This document shows positions 491-15,719 of a DNA stretch of 52,577 nt, piece after piece. This stretch comes from a virus. Below the pieces are notes generated by a model, which was given only the letters and a program-made list of their open reading frames with translations, did not search any database and was not told the DNA's origin. The position numbers and the translations under genes are program-made. The stretch spans positions 1 to 52,577 of IMG/VR virus record IMGVR_UViG_3300031251_000025; one strand, 5' to 3'. How positions within the stretch are numbered: the first letter of the stretch is position 1; each line of letters begins with the position of its first letter.

Positions 491-554
491 CCAGAGAAAA
501 CCAAACCTAGCGTTTGGACTCTCTGGGGCGTATCATTAGTTATCGGAGGAAGAT
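491..554 (+). promoter_or_regulatory. Stem-loop plus 14-bp leader element (copy A) ahead of gene 555
   Basis: Two nested inverted repeats, 491-497 with 520-526 and CCAAAC 501-506 with GTTTGG 512-517, can form one strong hairpin just after the helicase stop. Its right arm runs into TCTGGGGCGTATCA (522-535), which matches 12 of 14 positions of an element found perfectly three times in the island at 3.9-5.0 kb. A ribosome-binding site (GGAGG, 545-549) follows. It may be a terminator followed by a promoter or an RNA leader; the role is inferred. Confidence 0.45.
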
Positions 555-713
555 ATGCAACCAGTGAAGGTTCCCTGCTATGTCTGTTCAGGAACTGGAT
601 GGGTTCCACTGGTTCTGCTTCCCACATGGGCCAGGCAATGCCCCTGCTGTAAGGGTAAAGAATACATCACGGCTCAAGAGTGGGCCAAATACAAGGAGAA
701 GCATCATGGCTGA
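555..713 (+). CDS. Small zinc-finger-like protein (DnaJ-type CxxC motifs)
   Basis: This 52-residue gene starts at an ATG behind a good GGAGGAAG site. It has CYVCSGTG (residues 8-15) and CPCCKGK (residues 29-35), the CxxCxGxG/CxxCxGx pattern of DnaJ-type zinc centres, so it probably binds one zinc ion. The stop overlaps the start of the next gene by 8 bases, so the two are likely translationally coupled. Small phage zinc-finger proteins of this kind are common and mostly uncharacterised; no function can be assigned. Confidence 0.7.
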   Translation: MQPVKVPCYVCSGTGWVPLVLLPTWARQCPCCKGKEYITAQEWAKYKEKHHG

Positions 714-3059: not shown

Positions 3060-3093
3060 ACCAGACGCACAGGTCTTTGACAGTATAGAGAAA

Positions 3094-3116
3094 CAGGCCC
3101 CACGATTTGGGGCCTG
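3094..3116 (+). terminator. Hairpin terminator after gene 2784
   Basis: Perfect 8-bp inverted repeat CAGGCCCC / GGGGCCTG with a 7-base loop. The following bases (AATTATGC) are not a clear T-run, so termination may be weak or bidirectional. It closes the first gene run and marks the left end of the island. A related hairpin at 5601-5620 is followed by similar sequence. Confidence 0.6.
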
Positions 3117-3358
3117 AATTATGCCTGAATTTATTGAGGAATCTGTTTTCAAAAGTGAACCCCCTCCCATCCCCGATGTTTGTAACCAATACACCTAGAA
3201 TTTACCAGGAAACGTCCGTGCATCGTCGTATTCCGAAAGTTCCCAAACACGCTCTGAGAACCGATTGTGCATGCCCAAATAACCCTAGCTTTCCCTCGAT
3301 TCGGCTCCACCGAGAGGATTTAGCCGGGTGTATTCAGGAAATTCAAGAAGCATTTAGC
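3094..3358 (+). repeat. Diverged long repeat, copy 1
   Basis: Starts with the hairpin terminator and continues with segments that match 5601-5790: GGGGCCTGAATTATGCCTG against GGGGCCTGATTTTGCCTG, TGAGGAATCTGTTTTCAAAA against TGAGGAACTGCTTTTTGAAA, and TTAGCCGGGTG against CTAGCCGGGTG. This copy lies outside the CA-depleted sector and keeps CA dinucleotides at positions where copy 2 does not have them. Aligned by eye, with gaps. Confidence 0.55.
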
Positions 3359-3630
3359 ATCCCGATAATTTGACCGAAACGTCGGTGAAATCATAGGGAT
3401 TTTGCTTGAAGACTTCCACGCTAATCCGGGTCAATCGATCCTCCGAGCCTAACGAGTCAGGCGAGGATGTTTGAGGGAATCTAGCTGAATGTTACTTGCA
3501 TGATCAAATTCATGTGCATGTGTTAACGGCTTATGCCGCATATGCGGTGGTCTCAGTCCCCCAGGGTCAACCTTAGAACACGCAGAACCCAATTATCCAT
3601 AAACACAGCCATCGGCAACATGGGTGTTTG
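3117..3630. other. Non-coding stretch at left edge of the island
   Basis: I see no convincing gene here on either strand. Its first 240 bases are a diverged copy of 5621-5790. Near its right end, CATGTGCATGTGTTAAC (about 3511-3527) is followed by a perfect 12-bp palindrome CCGCATATGCGG (3536-3547). The normal mix of CA and TG continues until about 3630, where TG stops on the + strand. A similar CATGTGC-type sequence occurs near 6001, at another composition border. Confidence 0.5.
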
Positions 3631-3691
3631 GTTCCAACACGCAGGCACACCACGAAAACATTCATTCAGGGCTCATCCAAAAGTTCAGGGA

Positions 3692-3952
3692 TCAGTTAGG
3701 GCAAACGTCACCATAACCAAGATCCAGCCCGTTATTCTCATCCTCGCAACCGGGATAGTAATCAGGGCCACAGCCGTAGTTATTCGCAAGCGAACAGTTA
3801 CGGTCGAAGCTAGCTTTCCAACGCGCAATCCTCGCAGGAGAAACAGTCACCCGGTAGGCTTTATAGTAGAAGGACAGCCGGTATCCTTCCGCATTTACGT
3901 CAGACGTTCCAAAGATTCCATATTTTTTAGACCAAAACGCCAAGAATTTCAT
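3692..3952 (-). CDS. Island protein 1, hypothetical, 86 residues, no His or Gln
   Basis: Minus-strand gene. The start is set by GGGAGGATTGT upstream of the ATG, the same ribosome-binding context as genes 4180 and 4996. The N-terminus is aromatic and basic (MKFLAFWSKKYGIF), the C-terminus acidic with four Cys (NCSLANNYGCGPDYYPGC...VCP), which may form disulfides or bind metal. There is not one CA in the coding strand and so no His or Gln codon. A longer + strand frame covers the same DNA but lacks these start signals. Function unknown. Confidence 0.7.
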   Translation of the reverse strand: MKFLAFWSKKYGIFGTSDVNAEGYRLSFYYKAYRVTVSPARIARWKASFDRNCSLANNYGCGPDYYPGCEDENNGLDLGYGDVCPN

Positions 3953-4009
3953 CTTACAATCCTCCCAAGTATAGGGCTAATTCCCTATACGATAAGGATA
4001 CTCCCCAGA
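3953..4009 (-). promoter_or_regulatory. Island leader/promoter element, copy D (minus strand)
   Basis: On the minus strand, in order: TCTGGGGAGTATCC (4009-3996), a hairpin with an 8-bp stem GTATAGGG/CCCTATAC (3990-3969), then GGGAGGATTGTAAG directly before the ATG of gene 3692. Order and spacing match copies B and C on the other strand, and the hairpin arms differ from theirs in a compensating way, which indicates a conserved RNA structure. It probably controls transcription or translation of the island gene. Confidence 0.65.
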
Positions 4010-4122
4010 GATCCCAATAGAAAGCCCAAAAGAAAACCAACGGCGACTAGGCTTAGACGATACTTAATAGAGGATCGGAATCAATTCCACAAGGTAGGCT
4101 CGAAGCCCTTCCGTTTGAGTTT

Positions 4123-4179
4123 TCTGGGGAGTATCCTTTATTAAGGGGAAAAGGCCCCTTCTTTTGAGGAGATTGTGAA
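4123..4179 (+). promoter_or_regulatory. Island leader/promoter element, copy B
   Basis: TCTGGGGAGTATCC (4123-4136), then a hairpin AAGGGG 4143-4148 / CCCCTT 4155-4160, then TTTTGAGGAGATTGTGAA just before the ATG of gene 4180. Divergent to copy D, about 115 bases away. The GAGGA at 4166-4170 is the ribosome-binding site. Confidence 0.65.
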
Positions 4180-4593
4180 ATGGCTGAGATGCGGGAATTG
4201 CTCGTTGCGAAGGCTAAAGAGATGGCGAACTATGAGGGGATGACGGGAATACTCCTTGATAGGTCTGAGCGCCGTGACTCCGTGGCCTCTCGGGTTCTTA
4301 ACTTTGTAAAGTTTGACCGGGGAATGAGGGCGCTGTATGATGACTACTCTGGGGGAACCTTTGGGCCTATGCTTAGGGTTAAGCCTGAGAGTGGTAAGCG
4401 TTGCGGGCTGTTTACTGCCTCGTTGAAAGATGAGATGGCTGAGGCGTATTGGGACGCTCGGGCCTTGTTTATCGTTGCGAATCCTGCGACTGAGAGCGTG
4501 CTTTATGGGATGAATGAAGCCTATGCGAAGTATGTGAACGATGAGGCCGCTGAGCGTGTGGCTAAACGGAATCTTGGGGAGGTGACGAAATGA
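4180..4593 (+). CDS. Island protein 2, hypothetical, 137 residues, no His or Gln
   Basis: A mostly helical, mixed-charge protein (MAEMRELLVAKAKEMANYEG...), with a KCGLF-like RCGLFTAS stretch near residue 75 and helices rich in Ala, Glu and Tyr at the end. No recognised domain. The coding strand contains no CA at all in 414 bases, so His and Gln are absent; Met, Trp and Cys, which need TG, are present. Start follows leader copy B. It overlaps gene 4590 by 4 bases (ATGA). Confidence 0.75.
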   Translation: MAEMRELLVAKAKEMANYEGMTGILLDRSERRDSVASRVLNFVKFDRGMRALYDDYSGGTFGPMLRVKPESGKRCGLFTASLKDEMAEAYWDARALFIVANPATESVLYGMNEAYAKYVNDEAAERVAKRNLGEVTK

Positions 4594-4892
4594 CCGATTT
4601 GGCCTTGGCTATTGCCTACTGCGAGAAAATGGATAGCCTGTTTATTGAAACCTCTGAGAAGGGAGAGGATACCGGAAAGTTTGAGTTGGATGTTCTCTTT
4701 GGCGATAACGTCCCGGCTGACTGTCCTGTTCTTGTTGCCGAAATGGCTGCGATGTTTACTGCGGAAGTTGGTGCTGGACTCCTTGCCTGCGCTAATAATG
4801 TGGAGGATTGGAAGTATTTGGCTTGGCGCTTGAAGAAGTATGAGAGCCCTGAGTATTTGGAATCTCTGCAAAACTGGGAACTTGGGTTTTAA
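4590..4892 (+). CDS. Island protein 3, hypothetical, 100 residues
   Basis: Starts in an ATGA overlap with gene 4180, preceded by GGGGAGG, so the two are one translational unit. Acidic, mainly helical (MTDLALAIAYCEKMDSLFIE...), ending with an aromatic WELGF. One Gln (codon CAA at 4869) and no His. No domain recognised. The gene is followed by an inverted repeat and leader copy C. Confidence 0.75.
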   Translation: MTDLALAIAYCEKMDSLFIETSEKGEDTGKFELDVLFGDNVPADCPVLVAEMAAMFTAEVGAGLLACANNVEDWKYLAWRLKKYESPEYLESLQNWELGF

Positions 4893-4919
4893 CTACTTGG
4901 TTTCGCTTTGGCGAAGATT

Positions 4920-4995
4920 GGATACTCCCTGGATTCTCTGGGGAGTATCCTTAGTTATAGGGGAATAGGCCCCTCTTTTGGGAGGATTGTGAGAA
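4920..4995 (+). promoter_or_regulatory. Island leader/promoter element, copy C, with extra inverted repeat
   Basis: GGATACTCCC (4920-4929) and GGGAGTATCC (4941-4950) form a perfect 10-bp inverted repeat whose right arm is part of TCTGGGGAGTATCC (4937-4950). A second hairpin AGGGG 4959-4963 / CCCCT 4970-4974 follows, then TTTTGGGAGGATTGTGAGAA before the ATG of gene 4996. The first repeat may end the upstream transcript or bind a regulator; the second is shared with copies B and D. Confidence 0.65.
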
Positions 4996-5577
4996 ATGAT
5001 CTCTGGAATCGTGCGAGATGGAAAGCCTGTCGAACTGAGAAAGTGTAAGATAACGATTGACCGGGTTGGTTATATCTGGTTCTATGTGCTGGATGGGACC
5101 CGATTGGCCGGTTGGAATACTGCTTTCTTCCTGGTTTCTGACGCTGAGTTCCTGATGAGGGAATACGCTGACGCGATTGGCCGACCGATGACCCCTGCGG
5201 AGTTGGAAGACCCCGACGAAGAGAGAATGGCTGCTGAGGAAATCTACGGATTTGCCCTTGGCTCTGGGATCTATGAGAACCTGCCAAATCCGAATTTTGA
5301 GGGTTATGTCGATGTGCTTTTCTGCTTCGAGGGTGGGAACTGCGAGTATGAGGACCCTGAGTTTGACCCCGATGAAGGCTATGACTTGGGGCCGGTGGAC
5401 TGGGTTCCTGAGCCTGAGCCCCCTAAAGGTTTGGATTATGATAAGACTGCGGATAAGCTGCTGCCGGCTGGGCTTAATGCGAGGGATCGGGGTTTGTGGA
5501 AGGTTAAGAACCTGTTAACCGCTGATGAGCGTGAAGCCCTGTTCGGTGACCCATATTGTAAATGGTGGAACGGCTGA
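4996..5577 (+). CDS. Island protein 4, hypothetical acidic protein, 193 residues, no His or Gln
   Basis: The N-terminal part looks beta-rich (ISGIVRDGKPVELRKCKITI...VGYIWFYVLDG), then an acidic helix (MTPAELEDPDEERMAAEEIY) and a very acidic, Pro-rich middle (EYEDPEFDPDEGYD, PEPEPPKG). The C-terminus has a short helical LTADEREALFG and ends KWWNG. It is strongly acidic overall, as are some DNA-mimic anti-defence proteins, but that is only a resemblance in charge. No His or Gln in 193 residues; two CA occur in the coding strand, both read across codon borders. Start set by GGGAGG. Confidence 0.75.
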   Translation: MISGIVRDGKPVELRKCKITIDRVGYIWFYVLDGTRLAGWNTAFFLVSDAEFLMREYADAIGRPMTPAELEDPDEERMAAEEIYGFALGSGIYENLPNPNFEGYVDVLFCFEGGNCEYEDPEFDPDEGYDLGPVDWVPEPEPPKGLDYDKTADKLLPAGLNARDRGLWKVKNLLTADEREALFGDPYCKWWNG

Positions 5578-5600
5578 TTCATGTAAGCCTGAGAAACTCT

Positions 5601-5627
5601 GGCCCTGGGAAACCGGGGCCTGATTTT
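5601..5627 (+). terminator. GNRA-loop hairpin terminator after gene 4996
   Basis: GGCCCTGG (5601-5608), loop GAAA, CCGGGGCC (5613-5620): an 8-bp stem with one wobble pair and a stable tetraloop, followed by TGATTTT. It closes the island's + strand transcript, although the CA-poor composition continues 370 bases further. Confidence 0.65.
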
Positions 5628-5790
5628 GCCTGTTTATGCTGAGGAACTGCTTTTTGAAAGTGAATGGCCTCCCCCTACGAAATGTTATGGAGGAATTGTC
5701 TGTGAACTTATGGGCAAATTTGGGTGAATGTTTGCTCTGAGGCTATCGGGAAGATTCTAGCCGGGTGAATTGGGAAATAGTGGAAGAAAC
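5601..5790 (+). repeat. Diverged long repeat, copy 2
   Basis: Partner of 3094-3358. Shared blocks are the GGGGCCTG hairpin arm, TGAGGAA...GAAAGTGAA and TAGCCGGGTG. Where copy 1 has CA (TTTTCAAAAG, ATTCAGG, TTCAAG) copy 2 has TTTTTGAAAG, ATTGGG and GTGGAAG, giving an internal before/after comparison of CA loss. Confidence 0.55.
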
Positions 5791-6106
5791 TGGCTTGGAA
5801 TCAATTGTTGCTGAAGTTTTGGTTTCTTTTGGGGAATTGTAATCTGTATCGATGTATTTTTGGATCTGATATCGATGGAAAATATTGGATTGATTGAATT
5901 GGTAAAATTGGAAGAGATTGGATTGGTAATTGAGAGAAATGTTCTTTTGGTTTCTTGAGGAATTTGTGGATTGTTTTCTTGGGAATTTTGGGGAATTGAT
6001 GCATGTGCACAAACAATCATGCACACATTTTAACCACTTTTAAAACAGTTCTCCCAAATTCCCCTAAAACCAACCTTTCCCCTAAAACCGGGCCTCCTAT
6101 AAATCC
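5790..6106. other. AT-rich low-complexity non-coding stretch and composition border
   Basis: From 5790 to 6000 the + strand is built from TTGG, ATTGG and GGAATT words with almost no C. At 6001-6050 it flips to C- and A-rich words (CACAAACAATCATGCACACATTTTAACC). TG then stops on the + strand at about 6022. No gene is supported; the minus-strand frames here are low-complexity Ser/Gln/Asn stretches. The A+T richness and strand-composition flip would suit an origin or a transcription end zone; neither is shown. Confidence 0.5.
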
Positions 6107-6692
6107 ATCGTAAAATACTTCCCCGTCCGAATAGTAAGAAAGGCCCTAAAACCCTAAAACCCTAGACTTTCTTAGGCGAAAGGTAAAGAATAGGACGGGC
6201 CTAGTAGGGTAAAATTTACTACGTAGCGAAATACGACGTAGCGTAGTAAAACGCCTCTTTCGTCTAAACGCTAGTCTAGCTAAGCTTTCCGCCTAAACGT
6301 CCGATTCGAGCGTAGTAAAACGCTACGTTCCCCGTCCGATTAGGCCCCGATTCCCGGTATTCCGTCCGATTCCCGGATAGGCCCCTAATACCGGAGAACC
6401 CTAGACTCTAATAGGTAATCGGGCCTGCCCGAAAGTAATACGTCTAGGCCCGTCCGATTCGGTACGATCCTCGCTTCCTTCTAGCTAGGCCCGATAGGAC
6501 TAGGCCGGATCTTTCCCCTAAAAATAAACGCCCCTAGGCCCGTCCGATTCGGATAGACTCTAGGAACGGAACCGGGTTAAGGCCCGTCCGATACTTCTTT
6601 CTCAGTCCCGATAACGCTATAAGCTAGGCCCCGTCCGAATCTCTCGAACGGGAAACGCTAGACTAGGCCCCTAGGGGCTAAAGGATACTCTA
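6107..6692. repeat. Non-coding stretch with repeated GTCCGATT words and hairpins
   Basis: No gene seen. The word CGTCCGAT/CGTCCGAA recurs near 6123, 6299, 6331, 6362, 6451, 6541, 6585 and 6632, often after TAGGCCC or C-runs. CCCTAAAACCCTAAAACCCTAG lies at about 6143-6164. TTTACTACG (6215-6223) and CGTAGTAAA (6242-6250) form a perfect 9-bp inverted repeat. These could be binding sites or parts of a structured RNA; I recognise no known ncRNA family. Confidence 0.55.
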
Positions 6693-7316
6693 ATGCGTAA
6701 ATCTAATAAGACCGCTCCCGTCGCTATCCTCGAAGTCCTCGCTTCCGAAAATCCGAATACTTCGATCCTCGAAATTCTCGAATCGAACCCGGAAGCGAAC
6801 GAAACGACGGGAACCCTCGAAACGTCCGATTCTCTCGAAACGGGGAACCCGGAACCGGAGAGCGATCCCCTGCCCGAAACCGATAAGACGGAAGAGGCCC
6901 CGAAGGAAGAGGCCGAAACGTACCGGGTTATCGGTCGGACTATCGGTTCGAAGGATACGCTCGGATTCGGGGAAGGGACCGTAACGGGCGCGATTATTCG
7001 CGCTATCGCTTCCGGGGTCTTTACTCGAAAGGAAATCGTCGAATCGATCCTCGACGATTTCGCGGGCTCGAACGAGGCGAAAAGGAAGGCTACGAAAACG
7101 ACGATTTCCGTAACTTTTTCGGACGTCCGGAGTCCGTTCGGAAAGTACCACGCTTCCCGGTCCCTTATCCTCCGGGAAGACTCGAAGGGGCGCGTTTCCT
7201 TCGAGCCCGAACGGTACGCGCTAGTCGTTAAGGCTATCGCTTCCGGAATCCTTTCGGAGATTCGAGGGGCTTCTACTTCGAAGAAATCCGCGATCCTCGC
7301 TAAGTACGGGTTCTAA
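6693..7316 (+). CDS. Island protein 5, shares a C-terminal domain with sigma-like protein 14364
   Basis: A 207-residue protein. Residues 1-75 are an acidic, Thr/Glu/Pro-rich low-complexity region. Residues from about 85 on (DTLGFGEGTVTGAIIRAIAS...FSDVRSPFGKYHASRSL) align with the end of the protein at 14364-15719 (DSMGFTLGSRNSLLYTLIVA...LSDIKHPFGKFNTSRNL). The domain looks like a winged-helix-type regulatory module; that fold is a guess. There is one His and no Gln, Cys or Trp, and the only Met is the start, as the CA/TG depletion dictates. A weak AAAGGA precedes the ATG. It ends at a strong terminator. It may regulate transcription with or against the sigma factor. Confidence 0.8.
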   Translation: MRKSNKTAPVAILEVLASENPNTSILEILESNPEANETTGTLETSDSLETGNPEPESDPLPETDKTEEAPKEEAETYRVIGRTIGSKDTLGFGEGTVTGAIIRAIASGVFTRKEIVESILDDFAGSNEAKRKATKTTISVTFSDVRSPFGKYHASRSLILREDSKGRVSFEPERYALVVKAIASGILSEIRGASTSKKSAILAKYGF

Positions 7317-7320
7317 AATC

Positions 7321-7343
7321 GGGGCCTCGAAAGAGGCCCCTTT
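7321..7343 (+). terminator. Terminator after gene 6693
   Basis: GGGGCCTC, loop GAAA, GAGGCCCC: a perfect 8-bp stem followed by TTT, 5 bases after the stop codon. Its good form supports 6693-7316 as a real gene in spite of the odd composition. Confidence 0.75.
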
Positions 7344-7350
7344 CCCTACC

Positions 7351-7396
7351 TGCTCGAATCTAATAGGACGGACTAAATGCTCGAATCTAATAGGAC
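7351..7396 (+). repeat. 19-bp direct repeat around the start of gene 7377
   Basis: TGCTCGAATCTAATAGGAC occurs at 7351-7369 and again at 7378-7396, with an 8-base spacer. The second copy supplies the TG of the start codon and the first residues (LESNRT). A variant, TGCTTCGAATCGATAGGAC, starts at 7740. The repeat could be an operator or the result of a short duplication. Confidence 0.75.
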
Positions 7397-7565
7397 TCTT
7401 CCCGGCCTTTCCCGTAGGGATTCCGCCTCTTCCCTTTCCTACTCTTCCGCGAATCGGATCGAGCCTATCTACCGGGTTCGGCCTCTTCCCCGGAAACGAT
7501 CCCTCTTCCTTCCCCTTTTCGGGATCGCGTTTATCGCGTTCCTCGCGTTCCTCTTCCTGCTCTAA
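7377..7565 (+). CDS. Island protein 6, small basic protein with one membrane segment
   Basis: A 62-residue product. The first 42 residues are Ser/Arg-rich and basic; the last 20 (LFLPLFGIAFIAFLAFLFLL) form one membrane helix at the extreme C-terminus, like tail-anchored proteins. It has no His, Gln, Cys or Trp. There is no clear ribosome-binding site, which lowers confidence, but two good terminators follow the stop. It may be a small membrane effector or toxin-like peptide; that is inference from shape only. Confidence 0.55.
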   Translation: MLESNRTLPGLSRRDSASSLSYSSANRIEPIYRVRPLPRKRSLFLPLFGIAFIAFLAFLFLL

Positions 7566-7582
7566 ACGAATCGGACGGAACT

Positions 7583-7609
7583 AGGCCCCGGAAACGACCG
7601 GGGCCTTTC
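7583..7609 (+). terminator. Terminator after gene 7377
   Basis: AGGCCCCGG, loop AAACGA, CCGGGGCCT: a perfect 9-bp stem followed by TTT, 17 bases after the stop of gene 7377. Confidence 0.75.
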
Positions 7610-7621
7610 TACGTACGCCCT

Positions 7622-7644
7622 AGGCCCCGGAAGGGGCCTTTTTC
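7622..7644 (+). terminator. Second tandem terminator after gene 7377
   Basis: AGGCCCC, loop GGAA, GGGGCCT followed by TTTTC. With the hairpin at 7583 it makes a double terminator, an arrangement used to insulate strongly transcribed units. Confidence 0.7.
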
Positions 7645-8468
7645 GTTCTATCGTCGAAGGCCCGGAAGGCTAGGGCCTTCCCGTACGTTATTCCGGGTTC
7701 GGATTTAACGTACGGTACGTTTCGACGGGTTCCCCTTCCTGCTTCGAATCGATAGGACGGGAAGAGTCCTAAAAAGCGAAAGGTCGAAGAAATAGCGGAA
7801 TCGATTTTAAGGGGCCTAGAAGGCCCTAAGAGACGCGCCCCGTCCGTTAGGCTATATCGACCCGTAGAAAGACGAACGGAAGGAATCGAGGAAAGACGCG
7901 CCTCTCCGGGGAATCGCCTAGAGCCTTCCGAACCCTACCGGGGAACCCTCGAAAGGGGCCTTTCGCCTTCCCCTACGGCTGGACTAGACGAATCCGGCTC
8001 CGTCCGTCCGTTAGATCCCGCTCCCCTAAAACCTAAGATCCGGGGAACCCTAGAACCCTACCGGGGAGACTGGAGCGGAAGGAACGGACGGGAAGGGGCC
8101 TTTCGATCTAGTCCAGTCTCCCCGTCCGTTCCGGGGCCTATCCTTCCGGGTTCTATAGGGGAAGCCCTAGCTTCTTCCGGGAAGATCGAAGGGGTCCTCC
8201 CTCTTCCCGTCCTATTCGCCGGAAACGCCCCTAGAATCCCTCATTTCCTATTCCGGGGCCTCTAGAGGGGCCTAGAGGATCGGAGGGTCTAGGGGGAAGC
8301 TAGGGGCCTTAACGGACGGGAAGGAGATCCGGGTTTATATCCTAGGTTCTTTAGTAAGAAGAGGGGAAATAGTAGGAAGATTCTACCGAGTAGAAGAAGA
8401 GGAGAGGGACCGGGAGGACCGGAGACCGAGCCCGTCCGATAGGCTAAACCCTAGTCTAGCTAAGGACC
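7645..8468. other. Non-coding remainder of island sector 3
   Basis: No gene is supported on either strand. The stretch is full of GGGGCC/GGCCCC palindromes, GTCCGTTAG words and short inverted repeats; the clearest is CGGGGAGACTGGA (8062-8074) with TCCAGTCTCCCCG (8112-8124), a perfect 13-bp pair 37 bases apart. The sequence may encode a structured RNA on one or both strands or be a target for DNA-binding proteins. Confidence 0.5.
8062..8124. repeat. 13-bp perfect inverted repeat
   Basis: Arms at 8062-8074 and 8112-8124. Notably the only TG (8071) and one of the few CA (8114) of this part are the two halves of the same base-paired step, so they may have been kept or gained together by pairing. 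Confidence 0.65.
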
Positions 8469-8539
8469 TGGGGTAGGCTTCCCTATCGGAGACCCGTAGC
8501 GAGCGGTGGTGGTCCCCCTGGGAATTATACAACAATTTC

Positions 8540-8607
8540 CACATAAGACGCCACAACACATGCCAAGCACATAAATATGTATACACAAAATCACACATAA
8601 GACGCCA
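8540..8607. repeat. 14-bp direct repeat at the right border of the island
   Basis: CACATAAGACGCCA at 8540-8553 and 8594-8607. It lies just where normal CA/TG content returns, in an A+C-rich non-coding stretch upstream of gene 8672. It could be a regulator-binding iteron or a border mark of the island. The rest of 8469-8671 holds no gene; GTGCTACTATACAC near 8647 is promoter-like. Confidence 0.6.
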
Positions 8608-9007: not shown

Positions 9008-9067
9008 AATTTTATAAAAATGATAATGGGCTATAATCGGACGGTGAGAAGAGGCTAAAAAGAGGGA

Positions 9068-9181
9068 ATGCCCCGGGGGTTAAAAGAGAACAAATCGTGG
9101 ATTAACTGGCCTCTTCGTTTTCCTGTAATACAAGAAGACCCTGCTTGGAACGGCTATTGGAAACATAAGATAAAAGAATAG
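9068..9181 (+). CDS. Very small Trp-rich hypothetical protein, 37 residues
   Basis: MPRGLKENKSWINWPLRFPV... ending HKIKE. Four Trp in 37 residues and a basic charge. AGAGGGA sits close to the ATG; a TATAAT box lies at 9032-9037 without a good -35 partner. The stop is within a bidirectional terminator, as expected for the last gene of a unit. Moderate confidence because of its length. Confidence 0.45.
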   Translation: MPRGLKENKSWINWPLRFPVIQEDPAWNGYWKHKIKE

Positions 9182-9209
9182 GCCCAGGTTGAGAAAACCC
9201 TGGGCCTTT
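9180..9209. terminator. Bidirectional terminator between convergent units
   Basis: AGGCCCAGG (9180-9188) and CCTGGGCCT (9199-9207) form a perfect 9-bp stem, with TTT on the right. It lies between the + strand genes ending at 9181 and the minus-strand operon ending at 9230. Confidence 0.75.
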
Positions 9210-9229
9210 GTATTGCTTGGAAGACTGTG

Positions 9230-9619
9230 TTACATCCCCTGCCTTGTGTAACGGGTCATGTCTGTGCCACCACCAATCTGTGTGCTGTGCCCATCCCTCT
9301 GGCCTGGGTCAGTTTGGCCGTGTGCGTTGTTAGAATCCTTGTCTCCGAATGCAAACTGTGTGTCCAAGTCCACGATAGCTGCAGGGCCTGGCAGTTCTGC
9401 ACTAGAACAAGACACATACTCTGCACCTCTTGCCACGTGTGTCATGGATTGGATCTGCTCGTCTGTAATCTGAGACATGTTGGTCATCCTGAACACCCCC
9501 CAGCCTGCAACGGACAGGAACAGTGGAGGTGGCCATGGGATATTATTCTTGTCACAGAACAGGCGCTGATCCCCAAAGGGTGTGCCATGGAGCAGGATGA
9601 AGTCAGACTTGTGTCTCAT
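9230..9619 (-). CDS. Hypothetical protein, 129 residues, last gene of minus operon
   Basis: I place the start at the ATG (9619) that overlaps the stop of gene 9616 as ATGA; an upstream start would lie deep inside that gene. Begins MRHKSDFILLHGTPFGDQRL, with a Pro/Trp-rich NIPWPPPLFL, and its second half is Gly/Asp/Gln/Thr-rich and probably disordered. No domain recognised. It is the distal gene of the operon and is followed by the terminator at 9180-9209. Confidence 0.55.
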   Translation of the reverse strand: MRHKSDFILLHGTPFGDQRLFCDKNNIPWPPPLFLSVAGWGVFRMTNMSQITDEQIQSMTHVARGAEYVSCSSAELPGPAAIVDLDTQFAFGDKDSNNAHGQTDPGQRDGHSTQIGGGTDMTRYTRQGM

Positions 9620-12636: not shown

Positions 12637-13164
12637 GTGGCCAAGGATTTTAAAAGTCAGGAACGCGCAACTGCAAAGATTCTGGGAGATTGGTGGGGTG
12701 TGCCCTTCCGTCGCACCCCCAGTTCCGGGGCCTGGAACACACAGAGTAGGAATATGGGGCATGGCACCACTGATTTCTATGGTGATATCGTGGCTCCCCC
12801 AGAAGCCAACTTTCCATTCTCCATCGAGTGTAAGGCGTATAAAGAGGTAGAACTTTACAAGGCCCTGTATGCAAAGTCCAATATCTTTGCCTGGTGGGAG
12901 CAGGCTCGTGGAGATGCCAAGGCAGTGGGCAAGCAGCCTTTCCTGGTAATGAAGGAGAACCGTAAGCAGCCGCTTATGGCTATCTCCCAGTATGCCTACG
13001 TGAGACTGTCAAAGGCAGGAGCAATCCATCTGCCTGTGGTTTACATGCACTTGTGCTGGATGCTGGAGAGTGGCGTGCACCGTAATGTGTATGTCATGGA
13101 CTTGAAGGCATTCGTGGAATCAGTTCCTGTTAAACTTGTGAAGAAGGTATTCAATGGTAAGTAG
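12637..13164 (+). CDS. Holliday-junction-resolvase-like nuclease (PD-(D/E)XK type)
   Basis: A 175-residue protein starting at GTG behind AGGAGGG. Residues 25-70 hold the signature of archaeal-type resolvases and related PD-(D/E)XK nucleases: FRRTPSSGAW, then DFYGDIVAP and FSIECKAYKE, giving the D...E-x-K metal site. In phages such enzymes resolve branched DNA before or during packaging or in recombination. The gene leads a + strand block with two sigma-like genes and overlaps the next one by 11 bases. Confidence 0.75.
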   Translation: MAKDFKSQERATAKILGDWWGVPFRRTPSSGAWNTQSRNMGHGTTDFYGDIVAPPEANFPFSIECKAYKEVELYKALYAKSNIFAWWEQARGDAKAVGKQPFLVMKENRKQPLMAISQYAYVRLSKAGAIHLPVVYMHLCWMLESGVHRNVYVMDLKAFVESVPVKLVKKVFNGK

Positions 13165-13801
13165 ACAGATTGTTGAAGAACGTGTCAGTTCAGTTCATGG
13201 TCTTGCAGTCACCCTTGCTCTTAGTGCCCACAAGGTGCCTAACAGCACGTATGACCTGGAGGATTTGATCCAAGCAGCTCTCCTGGGGGCCACTGTGGCT
13301 GCCCATAACTATGAGGAAGAGCACGACTCTGCAGCCTCATTCTCCACCTATGCCATCTTCAGGATGCGTCAGGAGATCAGGAAACTGTATTACAAGTCCA
13401 GCGTGGTCCACATCCCCAAGCGTAACTACATGGCCATGAAGAAGGAAGACCGGCCAAAAATAATGTTCAACTTTGTCTATCTGTCTGCTCCCGTGGGGGA
13501 CACCAGTTACCGACCGCAGCCATTCGAGTCGCAGCTAGCGGCACCCCCTGAGCCAGACGAACTCTTCAAGACTGCTGCGCAGAATCTGCTTAAACACTTC
13601 CTGATGCGTCTTTCCCCCCGGAAAAGGTTTCTCATCAGGGCAGTGTATGGATTCCTGGGAGAACCAATGACCATTGCGGATGCATCGGCTCTCTGCCATG
13701 TGTCCAAACAGCGTGGATGGCAACTCATCCAGGAAGCCCTAACCAAGATCGAACGCATGTGTAAAGCTCAGGGAGTGACGTCAGACTGGGCTAGTAATTA
13801 G
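13154..13801 (+). CDS. Sigma-70-family-like transcription factor 1
   Basis: 215 residues. The N-terminal half has the region 2 pattern: YDLEDLIQAALLGATVAAHNY, then FSTYAIFRMRQEIRKLYY and VHIPKRNY (core RNA-polymerase binding and -10 recognition in the family). The C-terminal part (LSPRKRFLIRAVYGFLGEP, then MTIADASALCHVSKQRGWQL) fits region 4, with the helix-turn-helix that reads -35 boxes. Region 3 is mostly missing, as in small alternative sigmas. It likely redirects host RNA polymerase to phage promoters, probably middle or late ones. Confidence 0.75.
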   Translation: MVSRQIVEERVSSVHGLAVTLALSAHKVPNSTYDLEDLIQAALLGATVAAHNYEEEHDSAASFSTYAIFRMRQEIRKLYYKSSVVHIPKRNYMAMKKEDRPKIMFNFVYLSAPVGDTSYRPQPFESQLAAPPEPDELFKTAAQNLLKHFLMRLSPRKRFLIRAVYGFLGEPMTIADASALCHVSKQRGWQLIQEALTKIERMCKAQGVTSDWASN

Positions 13802-13899
13802 AAAAAACCGATCTAGTCGTCCGATTTTGACCAGCAGAGGTTCCATACAGTCTATAACTTCCAATAAACCCAAAACTTTTTTCTTTTACTCTCCCAACA

Positions 13900-13920
13900 A
13901 CCCGTAGTAAGCTACTGGGT
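13900..13920. promoter_or_regulatory. Hairpin/operator-like inverted repeat before gene 13940
   Basis: ACCCGTAG and CTACTGGGT are inverted copies with one bulged T around TAAG. It lies 20 bases before the ATG of gene 13940, where it could hide the ribosome-binding site or bind a regulator. The 138-base gap otherwise has a T-rich stretch (ACTTTTTTCTTTTACT) and no gene. Confidence 0.4.
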
Positions 13921-13939
13921 ATACATGGGAGAGATTTTT

Positions 13940-14356
13940 ATGGCAACTAATTTTGCCCTACACGGTTTTGTCAAAAAGACACCTTCTACATGCCGATTGC
14001 CAGAAGCGCAAGTGGCGTTAACGCAACGGCAGTTCTGTAAATGGTTGGCTAAGGAAAAGCACGTGTCTTCTGATGCCCTCTTCACTGCCATGAGCATTAT
14101 CAGTGATGGCATGGTATTGGCCATCGCAAGAGGCTATCGATTAGTGTGGCGGGGGTTGCTCTCCATCGAGTTGAGGGAACTGCCAGCACGCAAACGATAC
14201 CATCGCCTTGAAAAGATCATCTATGAGCAGCCACCGAGTTGCAGGGTGCACATTGGTAATGCCAGTGACCTGAACAAGCGAGTGCGGGAAATCGCAAAGG
14301 CAGAGGTGGAAAACGCTGTCAGGCAGATATCCCTGTCATACCCTAACCAGAAGTGA
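13940..14356 (+). CDS. HU/IHF-like DNA-binding protein (tentative)
   Basis: 138 residues. After a basic N-terminus, helices (QFCKWLAKEKHVSSDALFTA, then MSIISDGMVLAIARGYRLVW) lead into RGLLSIELRELPARKRYHR and a tail with RVREIAKAEVENAV. The order helix-helix-GxxLVWRGLLSIELRE matches the HU/IHF pattern of two helices followed by a beta-saddle with GFGTFEVRE, though much diverged. I take the ATG at 13940, with GGGAGAG upstream, over an ATG at 13925. Likely a nucleoid-type protein; identity is uncertain. Confidence 0.5.
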   Translation: MATNFALHGFVKKTPSTCRLPEAQVALTQRQFCKWLAKEKHVSSDALFTAMSIISDGMVLAIARGYRLVWRGLLSIELRELPARKRYHRLEKIIYEQPPSCRVHIGNASDLNKRVREIAKAEVENAVRQISLSYPNQK

Positions 14357-14363
14357 GGATGAC

Positions 14364-15719
14364 ATGGCTGATTTTTGCTTTGAAGCAGAGCGTGTGTCTC
14401 GTTACATTGCCCTGGGCAAACCTAAGAATGAGATTGTGCCCCTCTTTGCGCCACTCATCCGTGGCATCATTCGCTCAGTTTCCTTTGATCCTCGCAACTT
14501 TGATGAGAATGACCTGACCCAGTTTGGACTCATCAAAGCCGCTGAGGTGATTGCCAAGTTTGACCCAGCCAGAGGCAACCTGTTCTTTTATGCCACAAAG
14601 GTGATCAAACAGGCAATCTGGTCAGAGGTTCGGCTACGTCCTGGAGATTACCAGCGGTCATCAGATGACATCGATCCTGACACACATGCAGCAGTTCCTG
14701 AGTATGGCCCACTTGCAAACGCTACTCCTCAGGATGAGTTGGTCATGGACAGCAATCTGCTGAAGAACCTGCGATTGGAGGATGACAGCTATCAACCTGC
14801 TGCTCGTTACATCTTCGGTGTGCTTTTAGCCAACGACTATGAGAGTAATCGTGCAAGAGTGCTGAAAACCCTCACACATGGTTATGACGTCAATCCCAAG
14901 TATGCTCGCTACCTGGCTGACCATGTTTTGGTCAGCCTTCGTGTTTATTACAGCAAGGGGGCTTTGGAGGTCAGAGAAGACCAACTATTTGCCAATAAGT
15001 TCAAATATACCCTCGTTCCTGAGATCCGGGAACTGATTGGAGAGCGTGCCTTTGAACGACTGATCCACTTCTTTGGGGGACTCACTATTTCTGTGCCTTC
15101 CATGGACTTCATCCGTTCCATTGACCGGGACCTGGCCATCCTCAAAGCCTTGACGCATGATTGGAACTGTGGTCCCAACCTAGCCAAGAAGTATCGTATC
15201 AGCCCTGAAGGCATCAAAGCAGTCTACAAAGCATCCTTACACAAACTGCACACTGACCCTGAATACCGGGACTTGGTGGCAGCACAGTTGGATCTGGACA
15301 AGATTCCTGGGTATGAGAACCCTGAGAAGGCCAAGAAGATGAAGAAGCCTCTGCCTTCCTTTGGTGAGAAGCGGATTCCGCCCAGGCGCAAGGTATCCAA
15401 CACAGATTCCATGGGATTTACACTGGGTAGCAGAAATAGCTTGCTCTACACGTTAATCGTGGCTGGACACTGCAGTCGCAAGGATCTTGTGAGTCTTGTG
15501 ATGGAAAAGTTCGGTGGCTTGGAATCAGCTGCTAAAGCCACAGTGAGTGCTTTCCTGTCTGACATCAAGCATCCCTTTGGGAAATTCAACACCAGTCGGA
15601 ATCTGCGGATTGTCGTGGACCCTAAGAACCATATGACTTTCACAAAGGAAAGCCTGGCAGTCGCTCAGGCAATTATCGCTGAGAAACGCCAGGCTCAGAT
15701 GATCGCTGAAGTGGACTAG
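14364..15719 (+). CDS. Sigma-70-like transcription factor 2 with extra C-terminal domain
   Basis: 451 residues. Residues 45-95 carry region 2: NDLTQFGLIKAAEVIAKFDP, RGNLFFYATKVIKQAIWSEV. A helix-turn-helix near 285-310 (NLAKKYRISPEGIKAVYKAS) fits region 4. The last 100 residues (from DSMGFTLGSRNS) are an additional domain also found in island protein 6693-7316. The middle part is long and unlike standard sigmas. It follows an HU-like gene and precedes the morphogenesis genes, a good place for a late-gene activator. The stop overlaps the convergent gene 15716 by four bases. Confidence 0.7.
   Translation: MADFCFEAERVSRYIALGKPKNEIVPLFAPLIRGIIRSVSFDPRNFDENDLTQFGLIKAAEVIAKFDPARGNLFFYATKVIKQAIWSEVRLRPGDYQRSSDDIDPDTHAAVPEYGPLANATPQDELVMDSNLLKNLRLEDDSYQPAARYIFGVLLANDYESNRARVLKTLTHGYDVNPKYARYLADHVLVSLRVYYSKGALEVREDQLFANKFKYTLVPEIRELIGERAFERLIHFFGGLTISVPSMDFIRSIDRDLAILKALTHDWNCGPNLAKKYRISPEGIKAVYKASLHKLHTDPEYRDLVAAQLDLDKIPGYENPEKAKKMKKPLPSFGEKRIPPRRKVSNTDSMGFTLGSRNSLLYTLIVAGHCSRKDLVSLVMEKFGGLESAAKATVSAFLSDIKHPFGKFNTSRNLRIVVDPKNHMTFTKESLAVAQAIIAEKRQAQMIAEVD

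Follow-up and report, generated by a model that had tools for sequence, protein, structure and literature searches.

Almost no CA is left on the RNA-like strand over ~4.9 kb of an uncultured tailed-phage fragment, a pattern that is real, extreme, native and unexplained. The fragment is the IMG/VR record IMGVR_UViG_3300031251_000025, a metagenome-derived viral contig, and the window analysed here spans this whole viral record of 52,577 bases. As the best explanation we propose that the transcripts of the region were selected to lack CpA, probably in protection against a ribonuclease that cuts at CpA, a reading to which we give a probability of roughly 0.45. The fragment belongs to a contractile-tailed phage and encodes a T4-like terminase, a portal, baseplate wedge proteins, two sigma-like proteins and helicases; the only relatives found in the collections searched were distant ones. 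A predicted PDDEXK nuclease, a sigma-70-like protein and a second sigma/Mor-like regulator are encoded together at 12637-15719.

Both CA and TG are over-represented in most of the window (obs/exp 1.3-1.4), where TG on the + strand is counted as CA on the minus strand. From 3630 to 4115 TG is absent and CA normal (sector 1), from 4115 to 6000 CA falls to an obs/exp of 0.09 with TG at 1.30 (sector 2), and from 6040 to 8500 both are down to 0.05-0.07 (sector 3). Two-state segmentation at single-base steps gave four strand-specific CA-free zones (Table 1), with borders at 3630-4112/4116 (minus), 4090/4099-6001 (plus), 6020/6047-8506 (minus) and, for the second plus zone, from a start within 6055-6109 to 8529. 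The chance probabilities of the four zones range from 1e-17 to 1e-105 by binomial P, and the overlap of the last two makes sector 3 the part in which both dinucleotides are lost. On the sense RNA, CpA obs/exp is 0.05-0.09 in sectors 2 and 3 and zero in sector 1, over whole messages. Elsewhere in the window, beyond 3.4-8.6 kb, CA-free runs reach at most 99 bases and TG-free runs 145; in ~95 kb from distant relatives, CA-free runs reach 189. The + strand of sector 1 keeps its CA (46/125 C at 3630-4090), and the beginning of sector 2 (4091-4868) has no CA among 138 C where 43 are expected (log10 P -22.6). A CA-dense block lies right after each plus zone; the density of the one at 8530-8569 is matched at two other places in a full scan.

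Table 1. Coordinates of the CA-free zones and of the features in and around them.
Feature	Position	Strand	Details
Leader A, outside the sectors	514-557	+	Element with GTATCATT (CA kept), without hairpin before ribosome site
Sector 1, minus CA-free zone	3630-4115	-	0 TG/98 G, 32 expected; log10 P -17.1
86-aa ORF of sector 1	3692-3952	-	ORF list
Leader D	3952-4017	-	TCTGGGGAGTATCCTT, then 5' hairpin TATAGGG/CCCTATA, ribosome site
Switch point, neither + CA nor minus CA	4091-4115		CA/TG counts and segmentation borders
Sector 2, plus CA-free zone	4091-6001	+	6 CA, 101 expected; log10 P -42.6
Leader B	4115-4182	+	TCTGGGGAGTATCCTT, then 5' hairpin AGGGG/CCCCT, ribosome site, ATG 4180
Sector 2 ORFs	4180-4593, 4590-4892, 4996-5577	+	ORF list
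Leader C	4930-4998	+	Element as in B and D, hairpin AGGGG/CCCCT, ATG 4996
3' module of CA-free operon	5591-5673	+	Homologous to CA-bearing 3' module 3088-3168 of upstream operon
Terminator-like hairpin, sector 2	5601-5620	+	Followed by ~380 nt noncoding
CA-dense block right after sector 2 plus zone	6002-6041	+	9 CA/40 nt; 0.06% of background windows as dense
Sector 3, minus CA-free zone	6021-8506	-	9 TG, 208 expected (6021-8468); log10 P -92.6
Promoter-like -10 box TATAAAT	6098-6104	+	At 5' border of sector 3 plus zone
Sector 3, plus CA-free zone	6107-8529	+	4 CA, 218 expected; log10 P -105
Iteron-like motif CCGTCC(G/T)	6123-8440		19 copies in sector 3, 15 in other 50 kb
Sector 3 ORFs	6693-7316 (207 aa), 7377-7565 (62 aa)	+	Terminator-like hairpin after each
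Terminator-like hairpins, sector 3	7321-7340, 7580-7607, 7622-7639	+	Hairpin scan
Promoter-like -10 box TATAAT	8524-8529	-	At 5' border of sector 3 minus zone
28-nt repeat (family D10), two copies	8526-8553, 8580-8607	-	Adjoins TATAAT box at 8524
CA-dense block right after sector 3 plus zone	8530-8569	+	10 CA/40 nt; no sampled background window as dense

Several weaker or neighbouring signals were also seen. The + strand is mildly depleted of CA at 9008-9230 (4/35 C, P 0.006 uncorrected), a short unit with TATAAT at 9032 on one side and, near 9182-9212, a terminator-like hairpin on the other; it may be a further plus RNA. The noncoding stretch 3190-3490 shows a mild loss of CA (P 0.04) and TG (P 0.007) with raised CG, resembling a weak sector 3. 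Similar AT-rich sites with many GCATG/GTGCA close each noncoding 3' module at 3496-3530 and 6001-6035, just where the minus CA-free zones have their left edges.

The sequence-only reading had described a sharp switch of the depleted strand, taking under 25 bases, between leader copies D (minus) and B (plus), with the last + strand CA at about 4090 and the first TG at about 4115. By our counts these lie at 4090 and 4116, a point estimate of under 26 bases, and the position between the two leaders, at 3994-4017 for D and 4115-4138 for B, is confirmed; the length of under 25 bases stands as the best estimate, with a safe bound of less than ~90 bases given the uncertainty of segmentation. CA occurs on the + strand at 4027, 4038, 4082, 4088 and 4090 and next only at 4869, and TG resumes after the 3630-4115 gap at 4116, 4125, 4165, 4174 and onward. 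By segmentation the + CA border falls at 4090/4099, with positions up to 4136 uncertain, and the minus CA border at 4112/4116, with 4077-4165 uncertain; the switch with its statistical uncertainty lies within 4077-4165. Strand-specific CA skew at single-base steps had been called for around both 4100 and 6010; the flip is present at 4100, whereas 6010 is no mirror of it: plus-CA loss stops at 6001, minus-CA loss starts at 6021, and plus-CA loss is back at ~6107.

What kind of process removes CA can be judged from the remaining composition. Codon choice cannot be the cause, because CA is gone from codon phases 1, 2 and 3 and from noncoding DNA; a depletion driven by His/Gln codons or their tRNAs does not fit, as the loss is not confined to codon phase 1. 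The encoded proteins follow the ban: His and Gln together make up 1 of 430 residues in sector 2 (0.2%, vs 5.6% elsewhere), and the sector 3 proteins contain no Gln, Cys or Trp, one His, and Met solely as start. To model a ban, we took the dinucleotide chain of the phage itself and conditioned it on "no CA" or on "no CA, no TG". In sector 3 this ban fits best, with a G of 45; background gives 334, CA to CG conversion 577 and CA to TA conversion 1026; the corresponding values in coding sector 2 are 56, 144, 232 and 187. The models are not discriminated in sector 1 (27 for the ban vs 30 for CA to TA), nor separated at the noncoding end of sector 2. In sectors 1 and 2 the effect is confined to CpA, with TA at the phage's own level (78 observed in sector 2, 78 predicted by the ban), and sector 3 keeps its G+C at ~55%, its high CG and TA arising from the ban alone. 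Since the composition fits a plain ban and not CA to TA or CA to CG conversion, long-standing selection is favoured over deamination or modification. The earlier proposal that the non-template strand is modified as single-stranded DNA is thus not supported: in sector 3 and coding sector 2 the conversion models are far off and the ban is best.

The CA-free genes share a leader element and a 3' module with a neighbouring operon of normal CA content. Leaders A and C are 86% identical over 37 nt; where leader A, whose copy of the element spans 514-551, has GTATCATT, the sector leaders have GTATCCTT, and B, C and D carry CC and a hairpin. Because leaders B and C fold no better than shuffles, support for the hairpin comes from its recurrence with changed stem bases and not from energy. 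The 3' modules of the two operons align with a local score of 62.5, the shuffle maximum being 38. A common leader and 3' module in a CA-normal neighbour indicate that the CA-free region is native and no assembly chimera, and also that promoter class alone does not set the CA rule.

At sector 3, promoter-like -10 boxes stand at both 5' borders. From 3 to 9 kb the + strand has no exact TATAAA/TATAAT other than the box at 6098, which is one of 8 across the + strand of the whole window, and exact TATAAT occurs 5 times in the window with both strands counted. Under random placement the joint chance of such boxes at both borders is ~5e-5, an optimistic value because the motif was picked after the borders had been seen; a consensus sigma-70 scan gave no signal above shuffles. 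CAT, the minus-strand ATG, is nearly absent in sector 3, so a minus RNA there would hardly be translatable. As to repeats, the CCGTCC(G/T) motif often reads CTAGGCCCGTCCGATTCGG, and an outside minus copy lies at 9037, where the + strand is TATAATCGGACGG. A 21-base direct repeat (20/21 identical) is found near both ends of the sector, at 6264-6284 and 8444-8464. The repeat CCTGCTCGAATCTAATAGGACGG at 7341-7371, 7548-7578 and 7730-7760 retains TG in an otherwise TG-purged sector, which suggests a constrained site.

A double-stranded DNA target cannot cause loss on one strand, and the target is therefore a single strand; avoidance of a double-stranded restriction site was rejected on the same pattern, as sectors 1 and 2 lose CA on one strand alone and sector 2 keeps TG at 1.30. 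In both of these sectors the depleted strand is the RNA-like one, and across the divergent part, with its one minus and three plus genes, it is without exception the coding strand that lacks CA. A tie to transcription, proposed from the letters of the sequence, is supported in so far as depletion follows gene direction and flips between divergent leaders, and is likely. No -10 box was found to match the 4100 borders, and these borders miss the predicted transcription start, since the start implied by leader D lies ~125 bases downstream of the point where the minus CA-free zone opens. For the doubly depleted sector, two-way transcription had been suggested, and the oriented -10-like boxes at both 5' borders lend it circumstantial support; together with the CA-dense blocks they favour RNA as the target, with sector 3 probably transcribed from both ends. 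Because CA loss runs past the terminator-like hairpins at 5601-5620, 7321-7340, 7580-7607 and 7622-7639, read-through would be needed.

Four RNAs would account for the zones: a minus RNA from ~4115 to 3630, plus RNAs from ~4091 to 6001 and from ~6107 to 8529, and a minus RNA from ~8515 to 6021. Each would long have been held under a rule that bars CpA in the RNA itself, and the likely enforcer would be a host or phage ribonuclease that cuts at CpA, or needs it, and is at work while these RNAs have to persist. Cleavage-proof messages would then encode the region's small proteins, and to these messages the three sector leaders may add a hairpin near the expected 5' end. No ribonuclease family match was found among the window proteins scanned, the contig being a fragment. 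A more elaborate version, which we hold as tentative and rather doubtful, is that the gene block and its overlapping antisense RNA, both nearly CpA-free, alone stay intact while a CpA-specific ribonuclease of host defence or phage shutoff destroys other RNA, and that the CA-dense flanks of the plus RNAs may be sites at which read-through is trimmed.

The main rival to the ribonuclease reading places selection on single-stranded DNA, one strand in sectors 1 and 2 or both in sector 3 being uncovered while the DNA replicates or in R-loops close to an origin, with CpA (or template TpG) harmful there, for instance by serving as the target of a nuclease or the start site of a primase. An origin at 4100, with leading-strand polarity running away from it, would produce the pattern of sectors 1 and 2 as well, the iteron-like motifs of sector 3 are such as a possible origin might carry, and terminator-like hairpins do not stop the CA loss. 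Yet the sector 3 borders coincide with -10-like boxes, a 25-base switch between divergent leaders is natural for transcription, and we know of no primase or single-strand DNA nuclease with a two-base site; we regard this cause as unlikely. A different constraint on RNA or its synthesis, such as binding by a protein, a polymerase halting at CA, or use as structured or packaged RNA barring CA, would leave the same traces in the sequence as a ribonuclease. Folding at the local scale is indeed slightly stronger in sectors 2 and 3 (mean z -0.8 to -1.2 vs -0.3 in control), but this added structure is weak and the opposite strand shows it too, for which reason strong RNA structure was discarded as the cause, and genes with normal codon structure mark the RNAs as messages; this is a quite improbable alternative.

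Mutational erasure, whether through a modified C in CA or by a deaminase of cytosine or adenine that works in CpA context on the non-template strand, would explain a transcription-linked strand bias, which is typical of non-template deamination, and in sector 1 and the noncoding end of sector 2 its fit comes near that of the ban or is not told apart from it. We nevertheless judge it very unlikely, and transcription-linked cytosine deamination a poor fit, given that TA is not raised in sector 2, that G+C is kept and conversion fits far worse in sector 3 (and in coding sector 2), and that TG is retained in start codons and repeated motifs. A chimeric, synthetic or miscalled sequence might be suspected in a metagenome-derived contig with no relative in the collections searched: the sector proteins have none in viral contigs, bacterial genomes, phages or plasmids, and the sector 3 repeat motif gave no match in the search for relatives. 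The leader 16-mer and 17-base pattern gave 7 matches in viral contigs, those examined being unrelated sequence without CA deserts, and searches with the terminase, portal and DUF2786 neighbours gave distant relatives only, none with a CA desert. Against an artefact stand the leader and 3' modules common to sector and outside, the intact ORFs with ribosome sites and a composition that is the phage's own minus CA, which together leave it a slim chance. Searches for Rfam families and tRNAs found none, and the predicted structures of the 193-aa and 207-aa proteins had confidences of 38 and 44, too low for use.

The open-access literature searched gave no precedent for such CA deserts, and its matches on CA cleavage concerned the ring nucleotide cA6, not CpA. 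Known systems offer partial parallels. The first-step-transfer DNA of T5-type phages lacks restriction sites and so also misses a nuclease target regionally in one part of a phage genome, but that site is palindromic, double-stranded and not strand-specific, whereas in the present phage fragment the depleted strand depends on gene direction. In T7, type III restriction sites of 5-6 bases are strand-biased genome-wide; there too an oriented motif is confined to one strand, while here the bias is regional, concerns two bases and changes strand between divergent genes. A further parallel is offered by the ACA-less messages of the single protein production system, which survive global mRNA cleavage by MazF (reviewed in PMC5408214). 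These likewise lack a ribonuclease site, as CpA is missing here along the whole sense RNA; they differ in being engineered against a three-base site, whereas the present case is natural, concerns two bases, includes noncoding RNA and involves a putative enzyme. By this analogy, natural protection of messages against a CpA-requiring ribonuclease would be the most economical reading.

A two-letter word has been nearly removed from almost 5 kb, strand by strand and against the needs of the encoded proteins. Such a CA desert points to a strong and lasting selective agent on single strands, so far undescribed, which may be a viral or antiviral ribonuclease specific for a dinucleotide. Deserts of this kind, resolved by strand and dinucleotide, would be a simple signature for which viruses can be scanned, and they could show which phage genes need expression under attack.
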